A stretch of DNA of 64,000 nucleotides, from the NCBI GenBank assembly GCA_038049695.1, contig CP142452.1:108075001-108139000 (forward strand), read 5' to 3'. The notes under the pieces were generated by a model. It searched no databases. It was not told where the DNA came from and worked only from the letters and a program-made list of their open reading frames with translations. This DNA comes from Cinnamomum chago (lineage: Eukaryota; Streptophyta; Magnoliopsida; Laurales; Lauraceae). The position numbers were made by a program, and so were the translations under genes. Shown piece by piece: positions 4,651 to 55,793 of this stretch; position 1 is the first letter of the stretch; each line of letters opens with the position of its first letter.

Positions 4651-5323
4651 GTTGATAACAATTGTCGTGTCACTTTTTCGCGTGATGGATGTTTGATACA
4701 GGATCAGGTAATTGGGAAGCCGATCATGAGGGGGCATAGGGATGGACAACTATTTGCTTTACAGTTGGGTGCCTCTCCTACTGCTTTATTTTTTAGGACT
4801 TTCCAATTCCAAGCAACAATTTCTTTATTTGTGGCATCGCAAATTAGGCCATTTACATTTCAATAAATTGTTAGCAATGTTGAACTCTGGTGTGATTAAA
4901 AATAAATATTCCTTTTCATCTTCTAATGCTATTTGTGGGAGTTGTTGCATGGCTAAAGGCAAAACTCAGCCTTTTCCCATTAGTGATACTGTTTCTCATG
5001 CTTGTTTTGATTTAGTCCATACTGATGTATGGGGTCCTGCCCCGCTACTTTCTCGTCATGGCTATAAGTATTTTATTGCCTTCATTGATGACTTCAGTCG
5101 TTATACTTGGGTCTATTTCTTTAATACATGTACTGAAGTTTTACGAATATTCAAGGAATTTCACACACTTATTGAAAATAAGTTTTCCACGCGAATCAAA
5201 ACATTGCACTCCAATTCCGGGGGAGAATATGTATCTGCTCAATTTCAATCATATTTAAAAGAAAAGGGGATTGAATCTCAGCGTTCTTGCCCCTACACAC
5301 GTCAGCGTTCTTTGGATAGTTAA
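4651..5323 (+). pseudogene. Copia polyprotein fragment, pre-integrase and integrase
   Basis: The frame resumes with VDNNCRVTFSRDGC, followed by the GAG-pre-integrase zinc motif LWHRKLGH..CGSCCMAKG and the integrase core beginning FDLVHTDVWGPAP. The first catalytic Asp (HTDVWGP) is present. The second catalytic position reads LHSNSGGEY where Copia integrases have SDNGGEY or SDSGGEY, so Asp has become Asn. The frame ends at a stop just after the CPYTRQ box, where intact elements continue with a Q-NGVAERK-like motif. Reverse transcriptase and RNase H are missing. This is a dead, 3'-truncated relic. Translation should be read as one interrupted gene with 253-632. Confidence 0.85.
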
Positions 5324-8118: not shown

Positions 8119-9675
8119 ATGAATTTGGATCAACTGAGAATTTGGGCTAATGATCTGCGATTGTCAAGTGGTTCAAGTAATCAGGTAAATATATAATACT
8201 TTAATTATTTCAGGAAATAATTTTTTATTAATTGCAGATGCTCAAGTGAATGTATATTGTTGTTAGGATGATATTCTCAGAAGCGAAATAAAACAAGAAG
8301 ACAAAAATGTGGATGAAAATGTTACAAACGAATTTTTCACCGACATGGTATGATATTAACTCAATTCCAATTATATTTTATTTTTTTAATTTTTAATAAA
8401 AAGTTGTTAATTTCTAACAGAATGAATACATTTTTAGGTATTTAATTCGCGCCAATCTCTAATTGATTGGATTCAAAATACTGGACGCAATTTAGGATAT
8501 ATCATTGTCATTAAAAGGTCAGAGACTAGTATAATCGGGAAGAGTCCTAGATTATTGTTCCAATGTGATCGCGGTGGCACATACAGAAGCAAGAAAACTT
8601 CTACGAAAGTTACAGGCACAAAAAAAAAAGATTGTCCTTTCAGAGTGAAATGGATGAAAATGTGAACAGGTGAAGACTGGATGGCAAGGGTAGTATGTGG
8701 AACACATAACCATGCTCCTACATCATACATGGAGGGACATCCATACCCCGGTCGCTCTCTGAATCAGAAATCCAGTTGACGGTACATCTGTCTACGAAAA
8801 ATGTGAAGTCACGAGATATCTTGACATCGTTGAAGAAGCAGAATCCGGATAACATGTCTACCATTGAGACCATATACAATGCACGCCTGAAATTTCGGAT
8901 TGCAGAGAAAGCCGGCAAAACCCAAATGCAAGTTGTCATGTCATTCCTACAACGTGAATGATACATTTTCGAAAGTCGAACAAATGCTGTAACCAATGAC
9001 CTTGAAGATTTATTCTACGCACATCCAGAATCATCAGAGCGATGGAATGCATTCCCGCACGTGTTATTGATGGACGCAACATATAAAACAAATAAGTACT
9101 GCTTTTCTTTGTTTTTTTTTTCTCCTTTCTCTTTCCCAACTTTCGTGTTCATTTTACTTGTCTCCTTTTAATGAATATTCTTGATACTGATAAAAAAAAT
9201 AATAAACAGGTATAGGATGCCTCTCCTTGAGATTGTCTGCGTGACGGCAACTAATATGACATTTTGTATAGCATTCGTGTTCATGCACTCAGAAAAAGTG
9301 TTCAATTATACTTGGGCTTTAAGGTGTCTGCAGTCAACAATGGATGGATGCACCGGTCCACGAGTTATTGTCACGGACAGAGAGTTGGCTTTGATAAATG
9401 CGTCTGCCCACGTATTTCCCGATGCTAAGAAATTACTCTGTAGGTGGCACATTTATAGGAGTATTTTGAGCAAGTGCAGGCCATCAATAACAGACAAGAA
9501 ATCCTGGAATGCATTCTACAACCCTATTCTATACCAAGAAAAAATAATAGTAATTGACGTTCAGATCACAGTAACTTCAGGCCACAGCAAGATCAACCAC
9601 ATCGTGAAGTTTAGAAGTAAAAAACAAGAGCAGGAAAAAGGCAGTGATCAATATGATGATAATCAAACAAAGTAA
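8119..9675 (+). pseudogene. Dead MULE transposase, distinct from the 39-50 kb element
   Basis: Exon-like blocks are 8119-8184, 8267-8347, 8438-9095 and from 9210, with GT..AG borders (the last intron 9096-9209 splits the AAG codon in DATYKTNKYRM). The frame covers a FAR1-like N-terminal region (FQCDRGGTYRSKK..DCPFRVKW..GTHNHAPTSY) and the MULE core with DATYKTN (first Asp) and VIVTDRELAL (second Asp), then the CRWHI zinc-like motif. It is broken by TGA at 8663-8665, further stops and a frameshift near 8775, and a TGA near 8960. Homology ends after SWNAF at about 9515; the third acidic residue and the SWIM zinc finger are missing. It belongs to the transposase group often annotated as FAR1-related or PKS-type MULE proteins. 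Confidence 0.8.
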
Positions 9676-16113: not shown

Positions 16114-16678
16114 TAGACTTTTTGTTTTTTTTTTTTTTTAATCCCTTTAGTCGGAAGTTGCTCGGAGGACAGTGGGATAAACTCCCCAGTAGCCTCAATA
16201 TGGCAGTATACTTTTGAGCCCACAACATCTATATGCAAATCGTTGTCCTAGGCCAAGTGAGTTATCCCTCGGAGTTATATCCAATCATGTGGCCCACCTA
16301 CGTCTAATCTAATTGACTCACATCACACGCGTCCATAATTTTATACAGTGGCTCAGATTTTGCTCAATCATACAGATCTGAACCGTTCAATCAATCAAAC
16401 ACAAATTATATATGTATTACGTCTACCACAGATGACGAATTATAGATCCCTCCAATCAAAATAAAACTCAATCCAACTCCTATAAATTGTGAGTGGTCTT
16501 CTATATTAAAAAAACTGATTTAGCTGATGTCAGGGACCTCACCTGGTAAGAAACAAGAAGAATGCTGAGTAGGAAAGGAAGATCGAAACGTGCTTCTAAC
16601 CTTCTTCTCCACCTGTTTATCAGTGGAGCTGTGTAGAGAGTATTATGAATTGGAAGCTTTTGAGGTGAGTAGGGTTTA

Positions 16679-35665: not shown

Positions 35666-35745
35666 CGAGATAGAGAGAGAAAGCTTTTTTGTTTTTTTCT
35701 TCTTCTTGAGAGGAAGTTTGATATATAATAGACAGAGAGAAGGAA

Positions 35746-37569
35746 ATGGGGAAGCGAATGATTGCTCTAGGGTTTGAAGGCTCTGCTAACAAGATAGGCG
35801 TCGGAGTCGTAACCCTAGACGGAACCATCCTCTCCAACCCTCGCCACACCTACATCACCCCACCCGGCCACGGCTTCCTCCCCCGCGAAACCGCCCACCA
35901 CCACCTCCACCACATCCTCCCCCTAATCCGCTCCGCTCTCGACACCGCCTCCATCTCCCCCGCCGACATCGACTGCCTCTGCTACACCAAGGGCCCCGGC
36001 ATGGGCGCCCCACTCCAGGTCGCCGCCGTCGTCGTCCGCATCCTCTCCCAGCTCTGGCGCAAACCCATCGTCGCCGTCAACCACTGCGTCGCCCACATCG
36101 AGATGGGTAGGATAGTCACCGGCGCCGTCGACCCCGTCGTCCTCTACGTCAGCGGCGGCAACACCCAGGTCATCGCCTACAGCGAGGGAAGGTATCGCAT
36201 ATTTGGCGAGACCATTGACATTGCCGTCGGCAATTGTCTGGATCGGTTCGCCAGAGTCCTCACTCTCTCCAATGATCCCAGCCCTGGATACAATATTGAG
36301 CAGGTTCGCCTTATCAAATCAACCCTGCAAATTTATTTAAATCGCAGAAACTTTATCAATCTAATCGCGAACTTATCACGATTACTACAGTTGTAGAGTG
36401 GAATGAGTAATGAATTTATATGATTATCTAGTTCATAATTCATATTAAGTGGTCAGTGTTAATATTTGTGAGTGTGATATCAATTTATTGAAAGGAAATT
36501 TTAGTGTACAAGCATTGAATCACAATGTGCTCATTTGTAGTTTCATGCTAATGTGTGATGAATTTATGGGTATTCTGTAGTTTTGTTTTGTGGGTGTTTT
36601 CTAAGAACATCAAATTTAGTAATTTACTGTTTTCTTTGCTGTTTCCAACTGTTTTTCTTTTTACCCCATGTCTTTTCTTTTATAGCTAGCAAAGAAAGGA
36701 GTGCAATTTTTGGATCTTCCTTATGCTGTCAAAGGAATGGATGTTTCTTTTAGTGGGATACTGAGCTACATCGAAGCTACAGCTGTCGAGAAGCTCAATA
36801 ACAATGAGTGCACCCCTGCAGATTTGTGCTACTCTTTGCAGGTGAGATTTAATTTTGTGAGAATTTTTTTTTTCTTCTTTTGTTGGTGAAAAATATTGTT
36901 TTTACTACTCATAATAGCAGGTAGTTTTGGAAAATCTATGATAAAAGGCTCTCTCGTATTAAAAGTGAAAATCATGAATCACGATAATAAGGTCCCACTA
37001 GGTGTGTTTTTAAATTGCTGTGTGAATGGGATTCAGCACTGTCTACTCAGATCAGGGGATTCCTAATGAGTGGCTCATTAGCCTGGTTTAAGTAGGGCCT
37101 TCTTTGTGGCCAAGGTACTTATCTATCAGGTGTTGTGTTGGGTTGCACTTGAATGTTTGCTGTATTCTGCATAACACGTCAATTCTCACGCAATGTATCT
37201 CCCATGTTATTGTCTCCTTTTATGACACAGGAAACAGTGTTTGCAATGCTTGTTGAAATTACAGAACGCGCCATGGCACATTGTGACACGAAAGATGTTC
37301 TTATTGTCGGTGGTGTGGGATGTAACGAGCGGTTGCAAGAGATGATGCGAATAATGTGCTCTGAGAGGGGTGGCAGGCTATTTGCTACTGATGATAGGTA
37401 CTGCGTAGACAATGGAGCAATGATAGCATATACTGGTCTCCTTGCATATGCCAATGGCTTAACTACCCCACTAGAAGAATCAACCTTCACCCAGAGGTTC
37501 CGAACTGATGAAGTACATGCAATTTGGAGAGAGAAGGATATGCTTAATGCAAATGGTGTTGACAGTTGA
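35746..37569 (+). CDS. KAE1: tRNA N6-adenosine threonylcarbamoyltransferase, KAE1/OSGEP type
   Basis: Exons are 35746-36303, 36686-36841 and 37231-37569 (1,053 nt, 350 aa), all in phase 0 with GT..AG introns. The protein starts [20 protein letters not shown], the ASKHA/Kae1 fold. The metal site is formed by His113 and His117 in [11 protein letters not shown] and Asp298 in [13 protein letters not shown]. Other conserved segments are [36 protein letters not shown] and [14 protein letters not shown]. As part of the KEOPS complex it transfers the threonylcarbamoyl group to A37 of tRNAs that read ANN codons. It lacks an organelle presequence, so this is the cytosolic/nuclear paralogue and not the mitochondrial GCP1/Qri7 type. 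A CT-rich leader (about 35570-35700) precedes the ATG. Exon 1 is strikingly GC-rich while exons 2-3 are not. Confidence 0.96.
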
Positions 37570-39037: not shown

Positions 39038-39046
39038 TTAATAGTA
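39038..39046 (+). repeat. 9-bp target duplication, left (TTAATAGTA)
   Basis: Identical to 49991-49999. Confidence 0.92.
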
Positions 39047-39544
39047 GGATTAATTAGCGAAAGGTCCCTCGAATGGAATGTTTCCAGCCTCCAGTCCAGG
39101 CGGATTCTGTTTAAAGGTTCTGGTCCAAGCAGTTAGGATGTTTGCAGCCTAAGGTCCCTCTATCCACACGGTTTCAATTTTGAAGACTAATTTACCCCTG
39201 TAACCGTCGCAGCATGCAGTGGAGTGGTCCCCAACGTGTCACTATTATTTAGCCACGATTTAAGTGCATAAGTGGGGAAGTTATTACTGATATGCCCCTG
39301 TCATCCAGCGCAGATCTCGTTTTTTGAATCTAAACCTGCAATCGCTTATGATATTGAATTTGAATGTAGAAACCTAACGAGAGAGAGATTCACTGTTTGC
39401 GGAGCAGATTGCAGATCAATATTTTGGTAGGAGTTCTATTGTAATTGGATTATAGTCTCGTATATTGATTGGCTGGGAAACAGTTCATTGGCTTGGAAGC
39501 AGAAACCAGATCCAAACGTTGGGAAGGGATTCATCTTTTTTGAG

Positions 39545-40448
39545 GTAAGCGATTTTTTCTGTTTACATCAGATATTATGCAGTTTTTTGTTATCTGAACG
39601 TATAGATATATATATATTTCTGATGCGCATGCTCAGTTCTATTCTTATTGGTTTTTAGCTGTGTAGTTTGATTTACTGTATAGCAGATTTCATATCTAAC
39701 TTTTGTGTAGCAGTTCTATCTTTTATATGGACGTGAAGTTGATTTCAAATCTAACTTTTGTGTAGCAGTTTTATCTTTTATAAGGACTTGAAGTTTTTCA
39801 TTTTTCTTTTCGAGTGTTGATAGTTAGGTTTCTTTAGTTTTGTTGGTGATGAAGTATTCAATTTGTATCAGCTCAGTTGATGTAGAAATAATTTGATGGT
39901 CATGCATTTAGATTAGCTAGAGCATGACTTATTTACCAGTCTTATTTCAGAGCTGCATTATGGAAGAAGTAATGTAATATAAGATATTTGACTTTTAGCA
40001 TGAAATTTATCTGACTGTTAGTCAGACAAATCGTAGTTTGTGCAATTTTATCTGAGTTATATACACAATATCTGATTTCTGTGTTGAATTTATCTGAGTT
40101 ATGTACAATTTATCTGAGTTGTGTACAATTTATCTGAGTTGAGAGCCAAAATTTATCTGAGTTATGTACAATTTATCTGAGTTCAGAGCCAAAATTTATC
40201 TGAGTTGTATACAATTTATATGAGTCATGTACAATTTATCTGAGTTTATATGAGGTGTGTACAATTTATCTGAGTCATGTACAATTTATCTGAGTTGAGA
40301 GCCAAAATTTATCTGAGTTGTGTACAATTTATCTGAGTTATGTACAATTTATCTGAGTTGTGTACAATTTATCTGAGTCATGTACAATTTATCTGAGTTT
40401 ATATGAGGTGTGTACCATTTATATTCATTGAATGATGTTGTTTTACAG
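39545..40448 (+). other. Predicted 5'-leader intron of the transposase gene
   Basis: GAG|GTAAGC at 39542-39550 is a strong donor. TTTTACAG directly before the ATG at 40449 is a strong acceptor. The intron would contain the first tandem array. It is predicted from splice signals only. Confidence 0.55.
40040..40420 (+). repeat. Tandem array 1, core AATTTATCTGAGTT (+ orientation)
   Basis: About 15 copies of a roughly 20-bp unit, AATTTATCTGAGTT followed by a variable GTGTAC, with a few longer units carrying GAGAGCCAA. It ends about 30 bp before the transposase start codon, inside the predicted leader intron. The same core occurs in the three other arrays, on the opposite strand. Confidence 0.95.
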
Positions 40449-42721
40449 ATGTCACAGCCGTTATTGCTTCTCTGTAAGTATGGCATGCTTACGACTGTTA
40501 TTCATTTGAGTCGGGGTATGAGCTATGATGGTTTGATGCGTCAAGTTTGTAACAGGTGGAGAAATCTTACAATGAACATGGTTTGTTTTACTTATGCGTT
40601 GCCTGGCCACCCAAAGTACTTGCTGGACAGCGATTCGGATCTAATGAGCTTGTCCATGCTGGCTTCTTCAATGGGATTGGGGACAGTTGATGTATTTGTA
40701 TCAGAATCGCATGAATCGGAGGACGATGATCAAGAGGAAATTGGTGATCATTTAGCTGAAGATGCACTACCATTAGTGGGGTACGAGGATACAGATATAG
40801 AGACAGATCTTCTTCCACAGTTTTGTACCCACAAGGAGAAGATGTTGCTGTCTTCCGGCTGGGCAAGTGGTATTAGAGATGTGGGGCAGAGGTTTGAGGG
40901 TGGTGTTGGGGAGTTTAGGAGTGTATTGTGCAGACATTCAATTGAGGTTGGGTTTGGATTTGTATATGTGAAAAATGATAAGGTGAGGGTGACAGCTGAA
41001 TGCTCTCGCAGTCATTCAATGGGATGCAGATGACGTGTTCATGCATCTATTGAAAAGTCTAGTGGCCATTTTTGTATCAGGACACTAAACAATGAGCATA
41101 CATGTGGTGCAGCAGTTTGAACGTCAAAGAACAGCCGTATGAATTCTGAGACAATTGCAGATTTAATAGTGGATCATATCCGTGAGAAGCCGCTCACCAG
41201 ACCCATTGATGTCGTGCACCACTTTAAGGCGAATTATGGGCTTACCATTACATATCATCATGCATGGTGGGGTGTGGAAAGGGCTAGAAATAAGTTGTAT
41301 GGTGATTCGTCGCTATCTTTTGACCATGTTCGCTGGTATATTAAGGTGGCGGAGGAGGTAAATCCAGGAAGCCTCTTTGTGCTAGATTACGACGAATCAA
41401 CTATGTGTTTCAAGCGTCTCTTTGTGTCGTTCTATGCTTCAATTGCTGGTTTTAATCATATTCGTCCTTTATTATTTCTGGACGGTACTTTCTTAAAGGG
41501 CAGATACAAGGGAAACCTGTTGGCAGCGACGGGGAAGAATGGGAATCAAGGTAAGTTGTAATGCTGTTTTTTTTTATATTATTGACCCATTTATTTATAT
41601 TTATACGAATGATCAGCATGTTTTGATTTTCTGAATAGTATCAGAAATATAAAAATTTGTTAATTCATGGGACAGGTTTGTTCCCCGTTGCTTTTGCGGT
41701 CGTGGACTCAGAGACGGAGGACAATTGGACATGGTTTCTGCAAAATTTAAGGAAAATCATTATGTCAGATCGCACTATTACATTTGTTTCCGACAGAAAT
41801 CCAGGTCTGATAGAGGCTGTCTCAAAGGTATTTCATTTTGCCCATCAGGCGTATTGCCTCCAACACCTTAAGGCGAATTTGAGGGACAAGTTGTCTGGTG
41901 GTTACACTAATGCATTTAGAGAGAGAATGGTTATGATGCTGCGGGAATGTGCATATGCGCCAACCATCCCTGCCTTCCACGCAAAGCTGCAGTCGTTGAG
42001 GCATGAAGGTGGTTCTAATGTAGATAAATTTCTCTGTGGATTGCCTCATGAAAGATGGAGCAATGCATATTTTAAAGGGCAGCGGTATGGTGAGATGTGT
42101 TCGAATGCCGCTGAGTCTTTCAACTCATGGATTAGAGAAGCTCGCCATCTTCCAATTACAAAGATGGTTGACACAATAAGGGTTCAAATAATGGAGCAGA
42201 TGGCTAGTAGGAAGGAAGTTTCCAGTAGATGGAAGTCAGTCATCTGTCCGGACATGGATAAGAGGCTTGATGCTGCTATCCGGCTTGGAAGGACGTGGAC
42301 GGTCAGCCGTTCGAGTGAAACTGTTTACGATGTGCATTCTTACCCGTCAGTGACCGTTGACATTTTTAATCACATATGTTCGTGTTATCAGTGGCAGATC
42401 AATGGGTTCCCCTGCGCCCATGCTTGTGCGGCGATCCAAAAGAGTGGAAAGGAATTGAGTGTCTTTGTTGATCATTATTTTCACACTCATACATATAGGG
42501 CTTCGTATGAAGAGCAGATTTTTCCAATTCCAACCGTGGGAATGCCAGAGACAAAAGGCGATGAAGTCGTTATTCTCCCACCTATTGTTAAACGACCAGC
42601 TGGCAGGCCGGAAAAAAAGAGGATCTTGTCAAGAGGGGAGGTCACACGGCAGATAAAATGCGGTCGATGTGGTCGGATTGGCAGCCACAATAAGAAATCG
42701 TGCAAGGAGCCTCTTCTTTGA
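40449..42721 (+). pseudogene. MURA-type MULE transposase, two nonsense codons
   Basis: Exons 40449-41550 and 41676-42721 (716 codons; GT..AG intron, split Gly codon). The domains in order are: an N-terminal PB1-like ubiquitin fold (about 10-95); an acidic linker; the plant MuDR zinc-type DNA-binding domain (AECSRSHSMGC.. about 180-200); the MULE DDE core with Asp345 (LLFLDGTF), Asp407 (FVSDRNPG), the CLQH motif at 428-431 and Glu514 (SNAAESFNSW); a SWIM finger (CSCYQWQINGFPCAHACA); and a C-terminal zinc knuckle (CGRCGRIGSHNKKSC). TGA codons at 41031-41033 (codon 195, where relatives have Trp) and 41118-41120 (codon 224) interrupt the frame. There is no frameshift. Translation could restart at 41139, but that product would lack the DNA-binding domain. 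All catalytic residues are intact. Confidence 0.92.
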
Positions 42722-42977
42722 CATTTCATTGAATTAGATATTGAATTTAGGTTAGGTGTAATATTGTTGATACAGCTGATGTAATTCTGATTAGTGAATA
42801 AAAAGGTGAAATTGAGATTCCCTTTAATGTTGATTAATGTGTTCTTGCTTTTATAAGTAATTACTTTCAAAATGTGTCTAAATCAGTTAGTCATTGTTCA
42901 AAATTGATATTGAAATTGCATTAGAGCTGAGATTATCTGGAATCATTAGGTAGACAGAGCAATCACATTACCCAGCT

Positions 42978-43615
42978 AAATATGTAGCAGAACTCAGATA
43001 ATTTCAATCTAGACTCAGATAATTTCATCCATGAGTCAGATAATTTCAGCCAGGATTCAGATAATTTGAGTCAGAAGTCAGATAAATTCATTCGTAAGTC
43101 AGATAATTTCACCAGGACTTAGATAATTTCATCCATGAGTCAGATAAATTCACCAAGGACTCTGATAATTTGAGTCAGAACTCAGATAATTTCACCCATG
43201 ATTTAGATAACTTCATTCAGAAGTCAGATAAATTCATTCATGAGTCAGATAAATTTAACCAGGACTCAGATAATTTGATTCAGAACTCAGATAATTTCAT
43301 CCAGGACTCAGATAATTTCATATATAAGTCAGATAATTTCATCCATGAGTCAGATAATTTCAGCCAGGACTCAGATAATTTCATCCATGAGTCAGATAAA
43401 TTCACTCAGGACTCTGATAATTTGAGTCAGAACTCAGATAATTTCACCCATGAATCAGATAATTTGATTCAGGAGTCAGATAATTTCATACAAAACTCAG
43501 ATAATTTGATCCAAAAGTCAGATAATAAAAATTAGAACCTAGATAATTTCATCCAAAACGTAGATGATCTCAGTCAGAAGTCCGATAATTTCTATCAGAA
43601 GTCAGATAAAATTCA
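42978..43615 (-). repeat. Tandem array 2, about 21-bp unit, between convergent gene ends
   Basis: Close to 30 copies of a 21-bp unit: on the plus strand TCAGATAATTTCA plus a variable CCATGAG, CAGGAC or TCAGAAG end. The core is the complement of array 1. Because 21 is a multiple of three, the array is open for 121 codons (43170-43535), giving a seven-residue repeat of the type SDNFIHE. I regard that frame as a by-product. It lies between the transposase stop (42721) and the protease stop (43864). Confidence 0.95.
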
Positions 43616-45273
43616 CCCAGAGATTAGAAACAAAAGATTGCATAGTGCTGACGTACGAAGACATTGGCAGGAATAATTCTATTTACATTCATTCACAAAT
43701 GTGAGAATTACATTGACATAAATGTTTGTCCAACCTTCATGTGAACCAAAAAAATACATTCACAAGTCTGTTGAACATTCACTATTCATATAAAGAGATT
43801 TACATAAAATACATCAACTTGAATGGAAACAAATTGTTTGTCTCATTGCTGTAGTTTTTTTCGTCAGTTCTCGAAGTCGTCATCAGCAGCTAGTTGCCTG
43901 GCTTGGTAGTTTTCAAGTGACCAGCTGCAACGCTTGTCGTTTAGGAACTTGGTTACTATCTCTGCCCTTAATCCGTCAAGGACATGTTGTGGCAACTTCG
44001 AAGCAATTACTTGTTTGTGAGTAAGTTGCTTCATAAGATAACAAACTATCACCCCGCAATCAACACTGGAACAGGACATGATATTGTTAGTCGATTGTAA
44101 GTAAGGCACTGTCAAGTCAATTGAATTACTGTAGTTGCACAATGATACTTACGAGCCCATTTTCTGTTGTGGGGCGTCTTCGACGCTTATCAATGGAACT
44201 CCATATGGCTGTGTATCCTCAACTGTGACAAAATTGTAATTCTCCACATACTGTTTCTGCAGGAAAAAAAAAACATTCCGTATTTTTGGGTCAGTTTCGA
44301 TTATTTTAACAGTATCTTTGAAAAAATAATGACCAAGTAAGTGAGACATACCAGAGTTCGTGCATCCTCAAAGTAATGATCAACTGTTTTAGGTGATCTT
44401 GGTCGTAAGGAGTTGTAATGTAGCCAATCTCCTTCTTTCTGATCCAGCACCAACAGTGTCCAGTGGAAGGGTTCAGCATCCTTCCTTTTTCCATTTGAAT
44501 TCATTGGAAAAAGCACGAATCTGTGTTCTGCAGTTCTGCTTGGGGAGATATGAGGGTGCAGTATCTTGTCCTTCATTTCCGGCGACGAGGAAGTAACAAT
44601 TTTCTACATTAAGACATGTTTAGTAATTGTTTATTATATATAAAAATAAAGTAAATGATGACACAGTCAAGACAGTTATTGTCTTTTACCCAGCATAAAC
44701 TTGTTACGAAGTACGATTTGTCACGAGGCAGCGTGTCTGTTTGTTGGACAGTTGTGAGTTGCTGTTGGATTTCACTCTGTTCTCTATATAGCAACTCAGC
44801 GTAGCAGTCAATAACCTGTTCAATTAGTGTAACCACCTAATGTGAGGCATATTGTTTGAACACGACCATATTATGTTTGTGTAAAATGTAGGAATATGTT
44901 GTCAATGTGTCTGTGTTGTGATGCTTACAGTGCTTGACATTTCTGCTTTGCAGAGAACTGCTACTATGTCTTCATAAGATACAACCTGTATGCCCTCACC
45001 TCCCCAAACGAGTGCCCTGCGAATCCAATTGCAGAAATGGCCCAATTAGTCTACATTTTCATTAAGGTTTCTTAAATTGAACAGTGGTGTTGCTTAGGTG
45101 CATAGGTATGTGACTTACGAATTGCCCTCAGCTTCAAAAATCTCCTTCAGCTTCTCTACGTCAGATGCATTCAGGAGCTTAGTGACTGCATTTTTGGGGA
45201 GTGTGAAGGGGACATTTGCTGGGTTCATTTTCCTCGTCGCCGTTCTTTTCTTGATTCTTTTCACCATGGAGGA

Positions 45274-45852
45274 CTGTTCACCTCCTTAATTGGGTTTAAT
45301 GGTTCAACAGACGGCATGATCTGATCAATATTTCAATTATAAAAATATAGATTAATCAAATTAGAATTTGATGAAGGGCAGATAACTTTCATATAACATC
45401 AGGTAAATTTGCTGATAGTGTGATAAAATCATACAGAAGTTAGATAAATTTAATGAAAAGTTTTATAAGTTGATACAGAACTCAGATAAATTGTTAGAAA
45501 GTCGGATAAAATGACACAGAAGTCAGATAAATTGACACAGAAGTCAGATAAATTTGATACAGAACTCAGATAAATTGTTAGAAAGTCAGATAAAATGACA
45601 TAGAAGTCAGATAAATTGACACAGAAGTCAGATAAATTTGATACAGAACTCAGATAAATTGTTAGAAAGTCAGATAAATTTGACACAGAAGTCAGACAAA
45701 TTTGATACAGAACTCAGATAAATTGTTAGAAAGTCAGATAAATTTGCTATAAACTCAGATAAAATGACACATAAGTCAGATAAATTTGATAGATATGCAA
45801 AACATGAATTCAATGCAAAGATAAATTTATCTAAACAAGCATGGTCGTGTAC
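45274..45852 (-). other. Intron of the Ulp1-like gene containing array 3
   Basis: Minus-strand donor CAG|GTACAC (45853/45852) and acceptor GAACAG|TCC (45274/45273) keep phase 0. Most of the 579-bp intron is array 3. Confidence 0.75.
45370..45795 (-). repeat. Tandem array 3, core CAGATAAATT
   Basis: About 18 copies of a 20-22-bp unit: TCAGATAAATTTGATACAGA, TCAGATAAATTGTTAGAAAG and TCAGATAAATTGACACAGAA alternate in a loose higher-order pattern of about 105 bp. The transcript sense of the host gene reads AATTTATCTGA, the same as array 1 in the transposase transcript. Confidence 0.94.
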
Positions 45853-48081
45853 CTGAAGATCGTCAGGTACATTTTCTGCAACATTACGATCAGTTGCAGC
45901 CTCTTTCGCTGCTTTCTATCGTGTAGTAGTTTTTTTTGTAGGCTGGAAGATATCATCTAGAGTCTTCCCAGCCCACTGCAATCCTTTCTCTGTATATTCA
46001 ATTGTCATTTCCCTCAAGAGCTGCTGCAGTTTGAAGTTGTTTGATTCCAGATTAACCAACTTTTTCTTCAAGCCCTTTACCTCATTTTCTGCAGTCGTAG
46101 CTCTCGAGGACTGCATATCTGACACACTGATGGTGTGTTTAAGCTGCTCTTTGAGGGAGCTGACCATTCGAGTTGACTCCTCTAAAGTATGATCTTTGTC
46201 CACAGTGTGTGTTTCAAGCAAAGTCTTCTCATTTGTCAATTGCTCAACCAACAATAGAGCATCATCTCTTTCTCTTAGCAAGCTGGTGATCATGTGTTCA
46301 GTTTCAAGCCGCTGCTTTTTTATGCTGTTGTTTTCGGCCGACGTCCTTTCAAGGTCAATAGCCATCCGTTGGATCTGCTCTTGTAATTCTGTCTTCTCCT
46401 TAGTGAGTTGGATGACTAAAGAATTTGCCCTGTCACGCTCCTCAGTAAGAGTTTTGATCTCGCTGTTTTCAGGAGTTTGTGATTGTTGTCTAGGACTAGG
46501 CAATGTATCACCAGCTTCTGGTAAGGATCCAGAGTGTGCTTCAGATGACTCTTCATTTACTGTGTTGCTGGCGCTGACAATTATGTCAGCTAAGATGTTT
46601 GCAATCAGCAGATCTGTTTGTTGGGATGTCTGTTCATAGCCCGCCATCTCTGCACCAAATGCTATTGACTGTTTTGCCACAGCAGGAAAATCTGTTTCTT
46701 CACTGTTACTGTTTTGCAGCTGCTCTTCCAACTCGGATACAATCAATGTGTCTGTCAGTATGTCTGTATCTGGTTGGGTGGCTTCAATCATTTTCATCTG
46801 TTCTCCCTGATCTCTTTCTTCCAATTCTTCCTGGATGTTTTCATTTCCATCCTCTTGATCGTCTCCTTGATCAACATTTTCTCCTTCTAATTCTACTGCT
46901 ATGCCTCCCCCATCTCCTTGCTTTTTGTGTGTTTGGCCATCATGTTGCTCTCCTTCTATATCCATCATAACCTCCTTGTCACTAGCGCCACTGTCCAACA
47001 AGGACTGTAATCGCTGCACTTCAAGCAGCGTGATATCTAATTCGTCCCCAAGGACCTGCATTTGATACAAATTTTACAATGAACATGTTAGATTAAAAAC
47101 TTAGAGAAAATTAGAGAGTGAAAGTTGTGAAAAATACCTCAGTAGCTACTAGTGAATGAAGGGGCCTTTTCCTAAGTGCCATACTCAGTGCCCTTAGATT
47201 CCACTTTAGTACTCGTGGGAAATGCACCGAATCATCTGGTTTGATGATCGTCGTATGCTCACACAACCAATACTGTTACAAAATCATAAAACATAAATGT
47301 AGGTCAATAAATATTTGTATATTGAAATTCGAATTTGTAAATTTGTAGTTGTATATCATACCGGTAATGCAATAAGGCAACCAATTACTCTATCAGACCC
47401 ACGGCTTCTGTTGTGTATCGACTCCATAAGAAACTTTGAAATCTCTTCTGCCCAGGCATAGTGCTTCATATCCATGTAGTTTTCAACATATCCCACATAT
47501 GCCCATCCTATGGTGTTTCCATGGGTTGCAAAAAAAAGTGTGACAAGGATATACAGGCAAAGTAGCCTAGCAACATCAGCAATGTCAGTTTCTGATACTC
47601 CATTCAATGCTAGAAGGAGCTGTTGCTTTATTTGTGGAGCCGACACCCTTGAACAGCCATGGAATCTTCTAGAAATGAATTCAGTTGTTTTCCTTTTTGA
47701 ATATTTTAGATCAAGTTCTCTTGTTCCGTTTGGTATGCCGAAGATCAACGATATGTCATTTGCAGTTAATGGCACGTAGGACCTTCCTAATCTGAATTGT
47801 CTTCTCTGTGTGTTGTATGTATCAAGGATCAAGATAATGTCCTTGTCAAACTTTCTGCACATCTTTTCAGATATTTTGTTGGCCAGCATGCATTCTATGA
47901 GGCTCCAGAATGGAGTCTTTCTTAATTCAACTCTGTGGTCTTCAGTGACCATTTGTTTGATGCTGTGGACCAGTGACACAGTTGAGACCAAATTTGATCT
48001 GAACTGGTAATGAGCGCTAGTCTTCTCATCATTTATGTCCTTACTGACTTCATTCTTGTTTGATGGTTTATCTTCCACCAT

Positions 48082-49338
48082 TTTTCTCTTGTTATGTTTT
48101 ATTCCTGCATATAGTAAAATAACTCAGATTCATATCACCAAAATATTAAAACAACATCACACAGAACACAGATACAATTGCACAGGACACAGATAAATTT
48201 GATCTGAACTCAGATAAATTTGATGTAAACTCAGATAAACTCATGAAATAGACAAAAGATTTGGTGGATTTCCAGTCCAGCATCAGACTCTCTTGCTTTT
48301 AATCTCATATAAAGTCAAGAGACATTGATTCAACATCACACAGAACACAGATAAAATTGCACAGGTCACAGATAAATTTGATATAAACTCAGATAAATTT
48401 GATCTAAACTCAGATAAATTTGATGTAAACTCAGATAAACTCATGAAATAGACAAAAGATTTGGTGGATTTCCAGTCCAGCATCAGACTCTCTTGCTTTT
48501 AATCTCATATAAAGTCAAGAGACATTGATTCAACATCACACAGAACACAGATACAATTGCACAGGACACAGATAAATTTGATATAAAGTCAGATAAATTT
48601 GATCTAAACTCAGATAAATTTGATCTAAACTCAGATAAACTCATGAAATAGACAAAATGTTTGTTGAATTTCCAGTCCAGCATCACACTCTATTGCTTTT
48701 AATCTCAGATAATTTCATCAGGACATTGATTCAACATCACACAGAACACAGATACAATTGCACAGGACACAGATAAATTTGATATTAAACTCAGATAAAA
48801 TTGATCTAAACTCAGATAAATTTGATCTAAACTCAGATAAACTCATGAAATAGACAAAAGATTTGGTGGATTTCCAGTCCAGCATCAGACTCTATTGCTT
48901 TTAATCTCAGATAAAGTCAGGAGACATTGATTCAACATCACACAGAACACAGATACAATTGTACAGGACACAGATAAATTTGATATTAAACTCAGATAAA
49001 ATTGATCTAAACTCAGATAAATTTGATCTAAACTCAGATAAACTCATGAAATAGACAAAAGATTTGGTGGATTTGCAGTCCAACATCAGACTCTATTGCT
49101 TTTAAACTCAGATAAAGTCAGGAGACATTGACTCAACATCACACAGAACACAGAAACAATTGCACAGGACACAGATAAATTTGATATAAACTCAGATATT
49201 TTTTTTTTTAAATCTAAGATAAAATTACTTGAAACTGACAAAGTAGCAATGAATGTTATACATTTGGTTCAACATTTCTAATTTATACAAGAACGACAGA
49301 CATTATAAGCCAAAAAAGAAAAAAATCTGTCTGGATAC
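48082..49338 (-). other. Predicted 5' intron of the Ulp1-like gene containing array 4
   Basis: Donor AAG|GTATCC on the minus strand at 49338. The acceptor could be CAAG at 48088 (phase 0) or GCAG near 48107. It is predicted only, because the first exon has no homology support. Confidence 0.45.
48121..49205 (-). repeat. Tandem array 4, higher-order repeat of about 200 bp
   Basis: Six copies of a 180-202-bp unit start at about 48153, 48331, 48531, 48732, 48932 and 49134, each with AACATCACACAGAACACAGA. Each unit contains five to eight CAGATAAATTTGATCTAAAC-type subunits plus a conserved spacer (CATGAAATAGACAAAAGATT, TTCCAGTCCAGCATCA-CTC, CTTTTAATCTC). Several nested periodicities are visible (about 20 and 200 bp). 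It lies upstream of the protease coding start. Confidence 0.95.
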
Positions 49339-49990
49339 CTTCAACTTTCTGTTGCTCTTGCTCCGGCTTTCTGAAAGAATTGAGGACTTCGTTCTGGCCA
49401 TTTCCTAATTTGGTTTTCGTTATTAGAAGAGGAAGCAGAAAGAATAGTAGTAAATCATTCAAATCGGCGATTAACGGTAAGATAGGGTTTCCAAACAAAA
49501 AGACTGAGAAACATTGAACTTACAACGGAAATGAGTATTTTGAACTGTATTTGTATGCTTTCGGAAACAGTTATGCAGTTGTGGAACCGTCTTCTGCAAC
49601 TAGGGTTTGTATGTCGTCTTTTTTGTATCACAACTTGTCGAAATCAAAGATATCTTTGATGCAAACTCTAACTTGCAATGAAACAGTTAATCTAAGGAAA
49701 GTTTTTGAAACTCTAACTTGCAATGTTGTTACTCGTTGCATGCAGTCACAGAGACGAGAACGTCGCCTTCTTCGTCGTTTCTTTCCTCTTTCAGAATATT
49801 CGAAAGACTTTTTGCGATATAAGTGTAACGCTTTCGCTGGCCTTATCTTAATAAAGATAGAATGAATGCAAGGGCAAATCAGTCCTTTTACATACCAAAT
49901 TGTATATGAGGGACCTTTGGCTCGACGTTTTGTTTTTGTGGACTGTTTGCAATAAGGTGAGGAGTTGAGGGACCTCCGCCCAAAGTCCCC

Positions 49991-49999
49991 TTAATAGTA
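49991..49999 (+). repeat. 9-bp target duplication, right (TTAATAGTA)
   Basis: The partner of 39038-39046. Confidence 0.92.
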
Positions 50000-50322: not shown

Positions 50323-53300
50323 TCAAAATTTTGCCTCAGAGCTACAATGCAAGGAAACCTTTTCTGCAATCTTAAAAATCTCTTTCATCCGTTTGTCAAG
50401 TAGGTGATTCAACTGTTCTTCTTGACCCTTCCTATCTTTATCAACCTCGAAGTCAAAAGGGCAATCTGTTCCAGCTGCTTGGGACCGAAACATCACAAAT
50501 GTCATGTCATGATCATCTGGGGCCTCAACCACACATTTCCCGGCAGTCCCAACATCTTTCCCCAAGACATCCACCTTCATTCTATCTAAAATAGAGGCCC
50601 TATAGTTCTCCATAGAATGACAGTCCGTGGGGTCAAGATTCAGATACACTAGAACTTCCCAACATCGGAGGAACTGTTTCTTGTTGATCTTCAACTGTTG
50701 CCTGACTTTGTCAACTACATGTGCCGTTGGATTAGAGCGGAACTCACAAGTTTTCTTCGATAGGCGGCCTTGTTTCAGTTGAGAAGCAGTTGAGCTAATT
50801 GCTGATTTGATAGGGTCAAATTTTAGTAGGCGAAGTGTGTCAATGCAGGTGCGCACATGTTGGAGGTAATCAGACGGGTCTTCAACTGTCACATCATAAG
50901 CATTTTCAGATATAGCTACCGAGTTCAGAGCCTCGAGAAGGTGACGCCCATGTCCTCCGCCCTGGTTAGGAGGTAATACCAGTATCTGCAGTGGAAATGA
51001 AAAGGCTAAATAAGCTAAATAAGCTAAATAACAAAATAAAAAATGTCGCCATCTTCTATTCCTGAGGCAAATGAGATGAGAAAAGGTTCTAGAAAAACAT
51101 GCATACAATATTTTGACAAGCAAATGCAGAGCTGAAAGGTCCTGCTCAACAATACAACAGAAGGATGGCTACAATCTAAATAAAGAACGGTGCAAGCAAC
51201 AGTTTTCACAGCTCATGCATCTCAAATAATAGGGCTTCATCTGTATTGAAACTGATCTAGATTTTGAAGATTTTGATAGCATTTAAAGAGCATTACTATT
51301 AGAGGAACACTGGGCTAGATGTTATGAGAAGTATTTTGACAAAATATCACTTTCTTTATTGGTTAAGTCTCTCTTCTTTTTTTTTTTTAATTTTAATATC
51401 ATTCAACCAACCCACAAGTGATGATACAGGTACTTCAAAGTAGGGAATGTATCATATAGTTTCACATGTGAAAGTTCATTTTTTAATGTGTAAAATCTGT
51501 GCATCAGCCGTATCCATGGTGTGTTCCTATCATTTTCATCCCATATCTGGGCACCATAAGCCCATGAGGCAGATTTGGGTGTATCTTGGACATGTGACAA
51601 AACAAAATGTAGAAGAAACATTTGCAGCAGAAAGGGCAATCAGTCATTTCTGCTGTGCATTTGGGTGGTCAGAAAGACTGAGCACATCACCATACATCTT
51701 TTCAGCCTTTTCCAGCCCAAATCAATATCCATTACATTTTATATCATGCAATGGTTATTACTGTGGGCAGAATGTCATCTGCTGCCCACCTTCCTATAGA
51801 GGTCCAAAAATTTACATTTGTCGTAACCACAACATGAATTCTAAACTACTGACATTCCATGACTGGAATGGAGGAACAGAATTCATATGGCTGATCCCAG
51901 CATGGTTGGGACAAGGCTTTGATAAAGTTGATGATGACAACGATGATGTAGGAAACATCATGTTATGTTGCTTTTTGATGAAATCAAAACCATTTTCCAA
52001 GTCATTGTTTGTTTGGAACTAATCACAAAGCAAACCACTTTTTAGTAACCTGCAAAGTTGCATAACTTTTCTCCGTGGATCCCTTCAGCACTATCAGATG
52101 CAGATCGTCTGGAACATACAGATGCGAAGATATGCATAAATACATTTGAAAATACAAAGGGTCACGCTTAAAGGGGAATATGAAACCATTATTTGAGTAT
52201 AGAGGGGCCTAATACTCATAAATGATTCTAGCGGGGGGTTGTAGACCGATCTTGTTAACACAATGACAGGAATTAACCTGAATCACGGAGGGTTTTCACA
52301 CTATCAAAAGATCACTGGAATAGTAATAGTGCAAGAGCGAACCTGGCCTAGACGCAATCGAGAGCTATCAGGGTAGTGATAGAAGTGGTAGATTGTTGCA
52401 AAACCAAGTAACTTGACATAAGTTTCTGCACCCAGATCAGTATTCCTCTCAATGATGAAATGGATCTCCCATTTTGGATCTGTGACATCTACAGGACTGC
52501 CACCTGAATCAACATGCTCTTCCCATTATGAACTAGACCCCAAAATTCTTAGATGTATACAAGATGAAATTTCATTGGAAGCAACTAAGCATTACCATCA
52601 ACAAAAAGATGAACAAGAGCCACCAGGCGATTATATAGTTGCCCAACAGGTACGTTGCTGAGATTCATGCGAACAACCTGGTCCTGAGGAGGGAAAAGCA
52701 TCATTCATGGCAGTTGAAATGTTGAATGAAAAAGGCGCTTATCAGTAATTCAATATAAAAGATCAAATAGATTAAATTATAGTCATATCACAGATAACAA
52801 GATACCAATTTCCTACAGATTCTTTGAAATGAGCAATGAAAGCATCAGACATGTTCCGGTGTCTAATTCTTCTTGGATTGGTTTAGTTGAAACTTAAAAC
52901 TTTGTATTGCAATTGAGAACATATATGTTTTTGATAGGCAACATGGCTCAAACAAACAAAATCATGGTTGTGACGGTGAGCACCTTTGAACTGCACTACA
53001 GGCTGTTGTCACAAGTGGTAAAAATATATACATGTGCATGAGGGTTTTTTTTTTTTTTTTTCAAGGCCACAATTGATAAAATATTAATATGCTGTTTAAT
53101 TTAAGTCGTCCCTCATCTGATCTATCTAAGGTCATTTTGATTTTTTACTATTTAACACAAATATGGATGGTTGCTAGGGAACTTGTACAAAGAGCACCAT
53201 ATCAATCAGCTGCAGGATGAAATATCATAACCACAAACATACTGGTCAAGTCTGGAACATTACTTTTGGAAATGCTTATTTAACTGAAAAACCCAGACAT

Positions 53301-55761: not shown

Positions 55762-55793
<32 letters not shown>

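Follow-up and report, generated by a model that had tools for sequence, protein, structure and literature searches.

The 64-kb window analyzed here (64,000 nucleotides of Cinnamomum chago contig CP142452.1, positions 108,075,001 to 108,139,000) contains a Mutator-like element (MULE) of 10,944 bp (39047-49990) in which one short core motif recurs in four separate tandem arrays (A1 to A4), and this locus raises the question of what the arrays are for. By analogy with the VANDAL elements of Arabidopsis, they are probably the target sites of an anti-silencing protein of the KIU/VANC type. Sequence-specific anti-silencing by transposons has been demonstrated experimentally in Arabidopsis (PMC5735166), and VANC systems are cited as established (PMC12312487, PMC12844716). 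The kind of system has already been described; the core is new, and the genome is another one.

At up to two mismatches, AATTTATCTGAGTT matches the window 75 times where 2.1 matches would be expected (100 shuffles, maximum of 6); all but two of these matches, at 16475 and 33267, are in the element. A shared core, which the original prediction had given as 14 bp long, is therefore present, but it is better given as the 8-bp TTATCTGA, the commonest 8-mer common to A1, A2, A3, and A4 (16, 23, 13, and 17 copies) in a search without preselected sites. There are 72 exact copies of TTATCTGA in the whole window, 2 outside the element and 70 inside it, and of the latter, 69 are within the arrays and 1 is elsewhere. 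All of those in A1 are on the plus strand and all of those in A2 to A4 are on the minus strand, with no exact copy on the opposite strand of any array (0/69), so the predicted orientation of the leftmost array against the other three holds for the exact copies. Allowing one mismatch gives 20, 28, 17, and 28 sites, or 93 in total, in good agreement with the roughly 90 copies in four blocks counted at first by eye; at this threshold, A1, A3, and A4 each have one site on the opposite strand and A2 has none. None of the element's 70 exact copies falls in coding bases (5,174 coding versus 5,770 non-coding bases, counted with the exon model of the KIU gene that preceded the revision of exon 4).

The arrays differ in unit length, as had been proposed, but their lengths are closer to one another than first described, the 200-bp unit of A4 being a higher-order repeat (copies 93 to 95% alike) within which the sites mostly follow one another at 21 bp. 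A1 likewise has a higher unit, of 63 bp. Flank identity is 0.44 to 0.57 between arrays and 0.60 to 0.65 within them, and core identity is 0.92 to 0.96 both between and within arrays for sites that were selected by their core match, which is in keeping with the proposal of selection on the core with array-specific spacers. In 214 A2 units from seven copies, with steps of 20 to 22 bp picked from the flank columns alone, the core columns reached 0.89 versus 0.70 for the other columns; a rigid 21-bp grid laid on the seven A2 arrays lost register (core, 0.48 versus 0.55) and was dropped. As a separate observation, segments of A1 that are 39 to 67 nucleotides long show 70 to 85% complementarity to parts of A3 and A4 (25 longest pairs), so that a read-through transcript could form double-stranded RNA and feed small-RNA silencing.

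The element carries two converging genes, one for a mudrA-type transposase (MURA) and one of KIU type, a C48/Ulp1 gene that runs opposite to mudrA (Table 1). A1 reads in the direction of MURA and A2 to A4 in that of KIU. Three transposase domains scored above the cut-off: PF03108 (DBD_Tnp_Mut; 2.6e-9), PF10551 (MULE; 2.5e-11), and the SWIM domain PF04434 (5.8e-7). In the KIU protein, the C-terminal part matches Peptidase_C48 (PF02902; 1.2e-8, 35.5 bits versus a cut-off of 20.7), the middle part has the appearance of a coiled coil by eye, and the N-terminal part matches the Plant mobile domain (PMD) below the cut-off (8.9e-4). The matches to SENP8 returned by a PDB sequence search were all sub-significant (E, 0.27), and no others were obtained. 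The window copy of the transposase gene has two in-frame TGA codons in exon 1, and that of KIU is interrupted by an in-frame stop (exon 3) and a frame break (exon 4). The latter two suggested a pair of separate minus-strand genes flanking A3, an arrangement that we rejected because the stop was not seen there in five other copies compared, nor the frame break in six; the one-gene model, in which A3 is intronic, is thus the better one.

Pooled pairwise pN/pS values are below 1 in all four exons compared, as point values without a significance test: 0.26 in exon 2 (seven copies) and 0.54 in exon 1 (eight copies) of MURA, and 0.32 in exon 1 (eight copies) and 0.72 in the coiled-coil exon (six copies) of KIU. 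This contrast between exons is reminiscent of VANC, some parts of which are conserved and others variable. KIU exon 1 has at least 151 matches in the genome (150 of 364 candidates were scored), with other copies ranging from 99% identity downward, and many of these matches have no stop in that exon.

The window's own assembly (1.061 Gb, 14 contigs) was searched for combinations of the core, with reversed patterns as the control. The pattern core-6N-core was found at 426 places (267 + 159) and the triple core with steps of 20 to 23 bp at 4,821 places (2,219 + 2,602); the reversed controls gave 0 in both cases. The core-6N-core places among those listed for C1 and C2 were grouped by eye into 48 loci, examined as stretches of 1.8 kb, 10 kb, or about 12.5 kb or within the window; these loci comprise family A (32 loci), family B (7 loci), and mixed-strand clusters (9 loci). 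All but one of the 48 (L051) are related to the element group, and the MULE copies have retained the core; a generic satellite, the outcome that the original prediction had named as fatal to its claim, was therefore rejected.

Family A comprises the window copy, 30 loci whose left end aligns from element base 1 to 3, and L035, assigned through its KIU exons. Nine copies have both ends (the window and 8 of the 10 long loci) and these ends are near-identical; the 24-mer of the left terminus also begins six of the eight other both-ended copies. Target-site duplications are exact at 9 to 10 bp in six of the nine and weaker in L017, L021, and L025, with the ends allowed to shift by up to 3 bp and with low-complexity duplications in L011 and L013, while the right end of L015 and L019 was not found within the stretch examined. 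In the full-length copies L011, L021, L025, and L027, the order and strands of all four arrays are those of the window, apart from one opposite-strand core in A3 of L021, and the arrays turn over among copies: the number of exact cores ranges from 9 to 24 in A1 (11 copies), from 13 to 30 in A2 (nine copies), and from 6 to 18 in A4 (five full-length copies). L009 and L023 are 5.3-kb deletion derivatives, situated at different places with different duplications, that hold a transposase fragment and pieces of KIU together with 62 and 69 cores, respectively; a 4.5-kb derivative, L013, has 35 cores, and copies of 10.5 to 11.6 kb have 68 to 82 each. Overall, the exact cores number 62 to 82 per element over lengths of 5.3 to 11.6 kb (L009, L011, L021, L023, L025, L027, and the window), and L017 (9.3 kb) has 77. 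The end sequence TAATTAGCGAAAGGTCCCT, with up to one mismatch, occurs at 1,284 places in the genome (control, 0). Of 16 such ends compared by eye, 12 lack a triple core in the nearest 2 kb, and elements sharing ends of this type may carry other motifs, as in VANDAL21 versus VANDAL6.

Members L031, L032, L034, L037, and L038 of family B are 1.9 to 2.4 kb long and have related ends, the same core, and different spacers; their 9-bp duplications are exact in four and match at 8/9 positions in L038. The two remaining members, L049 and L060, were assigned from homology to parts of the others. The family B array lies on one strand, with single opposite-strand cores in L031 and L038. No match to the MURA or KIU query segments was found in L031, L032, L034, or L038, and the KIU matches of L037 belong to an adjoining family A copy. 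Retention of the core by this protein-less family points to a reader acting in trans. The mixed-strand clusters (L029, L030, L033, L036, L048, L051, L052, L063, and L065) are short and have the core on both strands. Seven of the nine have, by eye, an end like the element's right terminus, and L036 is 82% identical over 566 bases to one of these seven. Both ends and a duplication were sought in the nine mixed-strand loci, L049, and L060 and were found in none of the 11, for 7 of which the stretch was only 1.8 kb. The clusters are possibly a third, foldback-like non-autonomous group.

The spacing of the sites follows the turn of the DNA helix. Between window sites with up to one mismatch, gaps that deviate by no more than 1 bp from a multiple of 10.5 bp make up 16/19 in A1, 27/27 in A2, 16/16 in A3, and 26/27 in A4, where the chance fraction is 0.24, and the phase concentration is 0.76 to 0.97 versus means of 0.27 to 0.33 after the gaps were jittered by up to 5 bp. 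The best overall period of A2 and A3 is 10.5 bp. When exact sites are taken from 13 sequences, the fit extends to 555 of the 635 gaps, a count that includes one small L037 array belonging to family B; across these sequences A1 is the weakest array in phasing (e.g., 8/23 in L013). In family B, 36 of 39 gaps fit. Helical periodicity was reportedly described by Sasaki (EMBO J, 2022).

Like VANDAL21/VANC21 and VANDAL6/VANC6, the window element is Mutator-like with degenerate end repeats and dense same-orientation non-coding arrays whose size varies among copies, and it pairs a more conserved transposase with a partly variable second protein (PMC5735166). VANC21 binds a 9-bp motif, and VANDAL21 is marked by motif density and common orientation; the arrays, in same-orientation tandem, occupy introns, intergenic DNA, and terminal non-coding DNA and turn over through tandem repeat change, and the motif of VANC6 differs from that of VANC21 (PMC5735166). 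Large internal arrays, of which the original prediction knew no other case, do occur in Arabidopsis VANDALs, where VANC binds them (PMC5735166). One difference is the core, TTATCTGA here and YAGTATTAY or AGTTGTCC/AGTTGTAC there (PMC5735166). The other is the second gene, which here combines a sub-threshold PMD with C48 and has a predicted function. The element shares with VANDAL/VANC systems its dense same-orientation non-coding arrays and the way in which repeats have been gained and lost from copy to copy, and with KIU-carrying MULEs a mudrA-type transposase, a reversed Ulp1/C48 gene, and weak terminal inverted repeats with a duplication of about 9 bp. A DUF1985 and/or DUF287 protein, as in VANDAL/VANC, was not found, even with E values of up to 10 allowed, and the element is therefore filed as a KIU-type MULE. 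Kaonashi (KI) MULEs likewise have weak end repeats and a C48 gene reversed relative to mudrA (PMC2528002, PMC13317346), Ulp1 regions are contained in MULEs of grapevine, melon, and rice (PMC2528002), and, according to a 2026 review, the targets of VANC genes that carry Ulp1 (KIU) are KIU VANDALs with specific non-coding motifs (PMC13317346). The comparison with Kaonashi elements extends to another plant genome (1.06 Gb) and another core, with kinship judged by domain and layout alone. En/Spm, which encodes TnpA, belongs to the CACTA superfamily and has subterminal sites near its ends, unlike the window element. The parallel lies in TnpA, a transposon-encoded protein that has numerous short sites and opposes methylation (PMC10398659 for demethylation).

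We favor KIU/VANC-type target sites because the cores are confined to non-coding DNA, nearly all of them in the arrays; because dense same-orientation arrays occupy 5', intergenic, and intron positions, as do the targets of VANC21 (PMC5735166); because the gaps are in helical phase and the core combinations are numerous in the genome against controls of zero; because the derivatives L009 and L023 keep the arrays and family B shares the ends and the core without the spacers; and because pN/pS is lower in KIU exon 1 and MURA exon 2 than in the coiled-coil exon, KIU exon 1 has many matches without a stop, and the C48 gene has the reversed layout. By analogy, the KIU protein, with its PMD-like N terminus, coiled coil, and Ulp1/C48 part, would bind the dense TTATCTGA sites lying in one orientation on one face of the helix and would strip silent chromatin marks across an element that the host presumably silences by methylation, its binding being the putative cause of demethylation. 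Loss of the silent marks would allow the element's genes to be expressed and the element to move, presumably from an intact copy, and non-autonomous relatives that retain or acquire the core would use the KIU protein in trans. A more specific scheme, in which the PMD-type domain and the coiled coil rather than DUF1985 read the sequence, a phased filament forms on roughly 60 to 80 TTATCTGA sites per element, site number is kept over 5.3 to 11.6 kb, and non-coding MULE families share the core as anti-silencing parasites, is rather doubtful as a whole. A multi-copy family with a clear core, many stop-free copies of KIU exon 1, derivatives, and core-sharing non-coding families amounts to a natural experiment and offers material for testing the coevolution of target motif, density, and helical spacing with the reader protein; the core could also become a new short tag in targeted demethylation.

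Several observations weigh against KIU-type target sites. Neither DUF1985 nor DUF287 was matched in the KIU protein, whose PMD match is sub-threshold, and no compared copy was free of stops and indels across all four exons tested; in the window's frame, the coiled-coil exon has a stop in five of six copies, and in L021 it also has large indels. Certain flank columns of the A2 units are conserved as strongly as the core, and the variable columns of A4 (2/48 core versus 19/154 other) do not differ significantly (P = 0.17). Shuffling the order of the gaps leaves the helical phase undiminished (P = 0.14 to 0.69), the best periods of A1 (10.4 bp) and A4 (10.6 bp) depart from 10.5 bp, and tandem duplication of a 21-bp unit by itself yields a helical phase, which is thus due in large part to the founder unit; spacings of 63 and 74 bp in A4, like the 63-bp unit in A1, would fit the maintenance of phase rather than of unit length without proving it. 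This consequence of the 21-bp unit also speaks for the arrays being neutral by-products of slippage or unequal exchange that descend from one seed, as do the close likeness of the A4 copies and the freely varying array sizes. Such an origin is highly improbable given the better-kept core columns of the A2 units, the coding exons without exact cores, the core kept between arrays and families despite differing spacers, and the many cores retained in the 5.3-kb derivatives.

MURA could also bind the core, and the original prediction had put transposase binding first; we consider it unlikely that the arrays are MURA sites of the subterminal-repeat type, serving synapsis or MURA-driven hypomethylation. 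A1 and A4 are indeed the outermost arrays and face inward from both ends, and in maize MURA hypomethylates the end repeats of non-autonomous elements (PMC10398659). Mosquito MULEs have subterminal tandem repeats of 9 to 15 bp, and Muta1 of Aedes aegypti resembles the window element in its short tandem repeats, but these lie within long end repeats, whereas those of the window are found some 1 kb farther in, between genes, and in an intron (PMC5225508). A2 and A3 are situated in mid-element, the latter within an intron, and A1 and A4 begin about 0.8 to 1 kb inside the element ends, whereas a separate 9-bp sequence, AGGTCCCTC, stands inverted 15 bp from both. By eye, a triple core lies within 2 kb of 4 of the 16 exact left ends listed for C1:1-20.36 Mb, a comparison of exact ends with the strict triple core that sparser arrays would escape; elements with such ends thus seem viable without dense arrays. 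Binding of a host transcription factor or chromatin protein, with the arrays acting on the element's genes as enhancers or insulators, is quite improbable, even though every array is in sense orientation to an abutting gene and the other strand of TTATCTGA contains GATAA, which we take to be GATA-factor-like. Promoter elements would be unusual in an intron or between the 3' ends of two genes, and arrays of a host motif would be expected outside the element group, yet only 2 of the 72 exact window cores are outside the element and 47 of the 48 loci are related to it.

Table 1. Positions of the element's ends, genes, and arrays in the window
Feature	Position	Strand	Details
Left target-site duplication TTAATAGTA	39038-39046		9 bp; exact direct repeat with 49991-49999
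Left terminus	39047-39070	+	Degenerate terminal inverted repeat; AGGTCCCTC starts 15 bp from end
Array A1	about 40004-40403	+	16 exact cores; spacing mostly 20 bp, 22-23 interspersed; 5' of transposase gene
mudrA-type transposase gene	40449-42721	+	Exons 40449-41550, 41675-42721; PF03108, PF10551, PF04434 matches
Array A2	42988-43621	-	23 exact cores; spacing 21 bp; between 3' ends of the converging genes
KIU-type gene	43864-48081	-	9 exons; splice signals by eye; exon 4 start revised against other copies
KIU exons 1-5	48081-47362, 47272-47138, 47055-45853, 45320-45119, 45016-44929	-	
KIU exons 6-9	44836-44690, 44603-44352, 44256-44153, 44065-43864	-	
Array A3	45422-45791	-	13 exact cores; spacing 20-22 bp; within KIU intron 45852-45321
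Array A4	48160-49202	-	17 exact cores; about five copies of 200-bp unit; upstream of KIU
Right terminus	49967-49990	-	Inverted AGGTCCCTC 15 bp from end
Right target-site duplication TTAATAGTA	49991-49999		9 bp; exact direct repeat with 39038-39046

The TTAATAGTA pair that bounds the element was the best of 25 candidate 9-bp pairs ranked by terminal complementarity. The terminal inverted repeats are weak, matching at 14 of 24 positions, a score reached by 0.12% of random pairs. A 55-bp tandem duplication without the core (39686-39795; 92% match) also lies in non-coding DNA on the left side of the element. The left neighbor of the element is a TsaD/OSGEP-type gene (35722-36396; PF00814, 1.7e-47) with later exons, by eye, to about 37.57 kb, and some 330 bp past the right end there is a frame (50323-51168) with a weak, sub-threshold HAT1_C match. 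Elsewhere in the window are a further MULE transposase fragment on the plus strand (9175-9675; PF10551, 9.1e-21) with no motif array nearby, a Copia-type integrase fragment, also on the plus strand (4730-5323; rve, 7e-12; gag_pre-integrs), and a run of 30 C residues (55763-55792).

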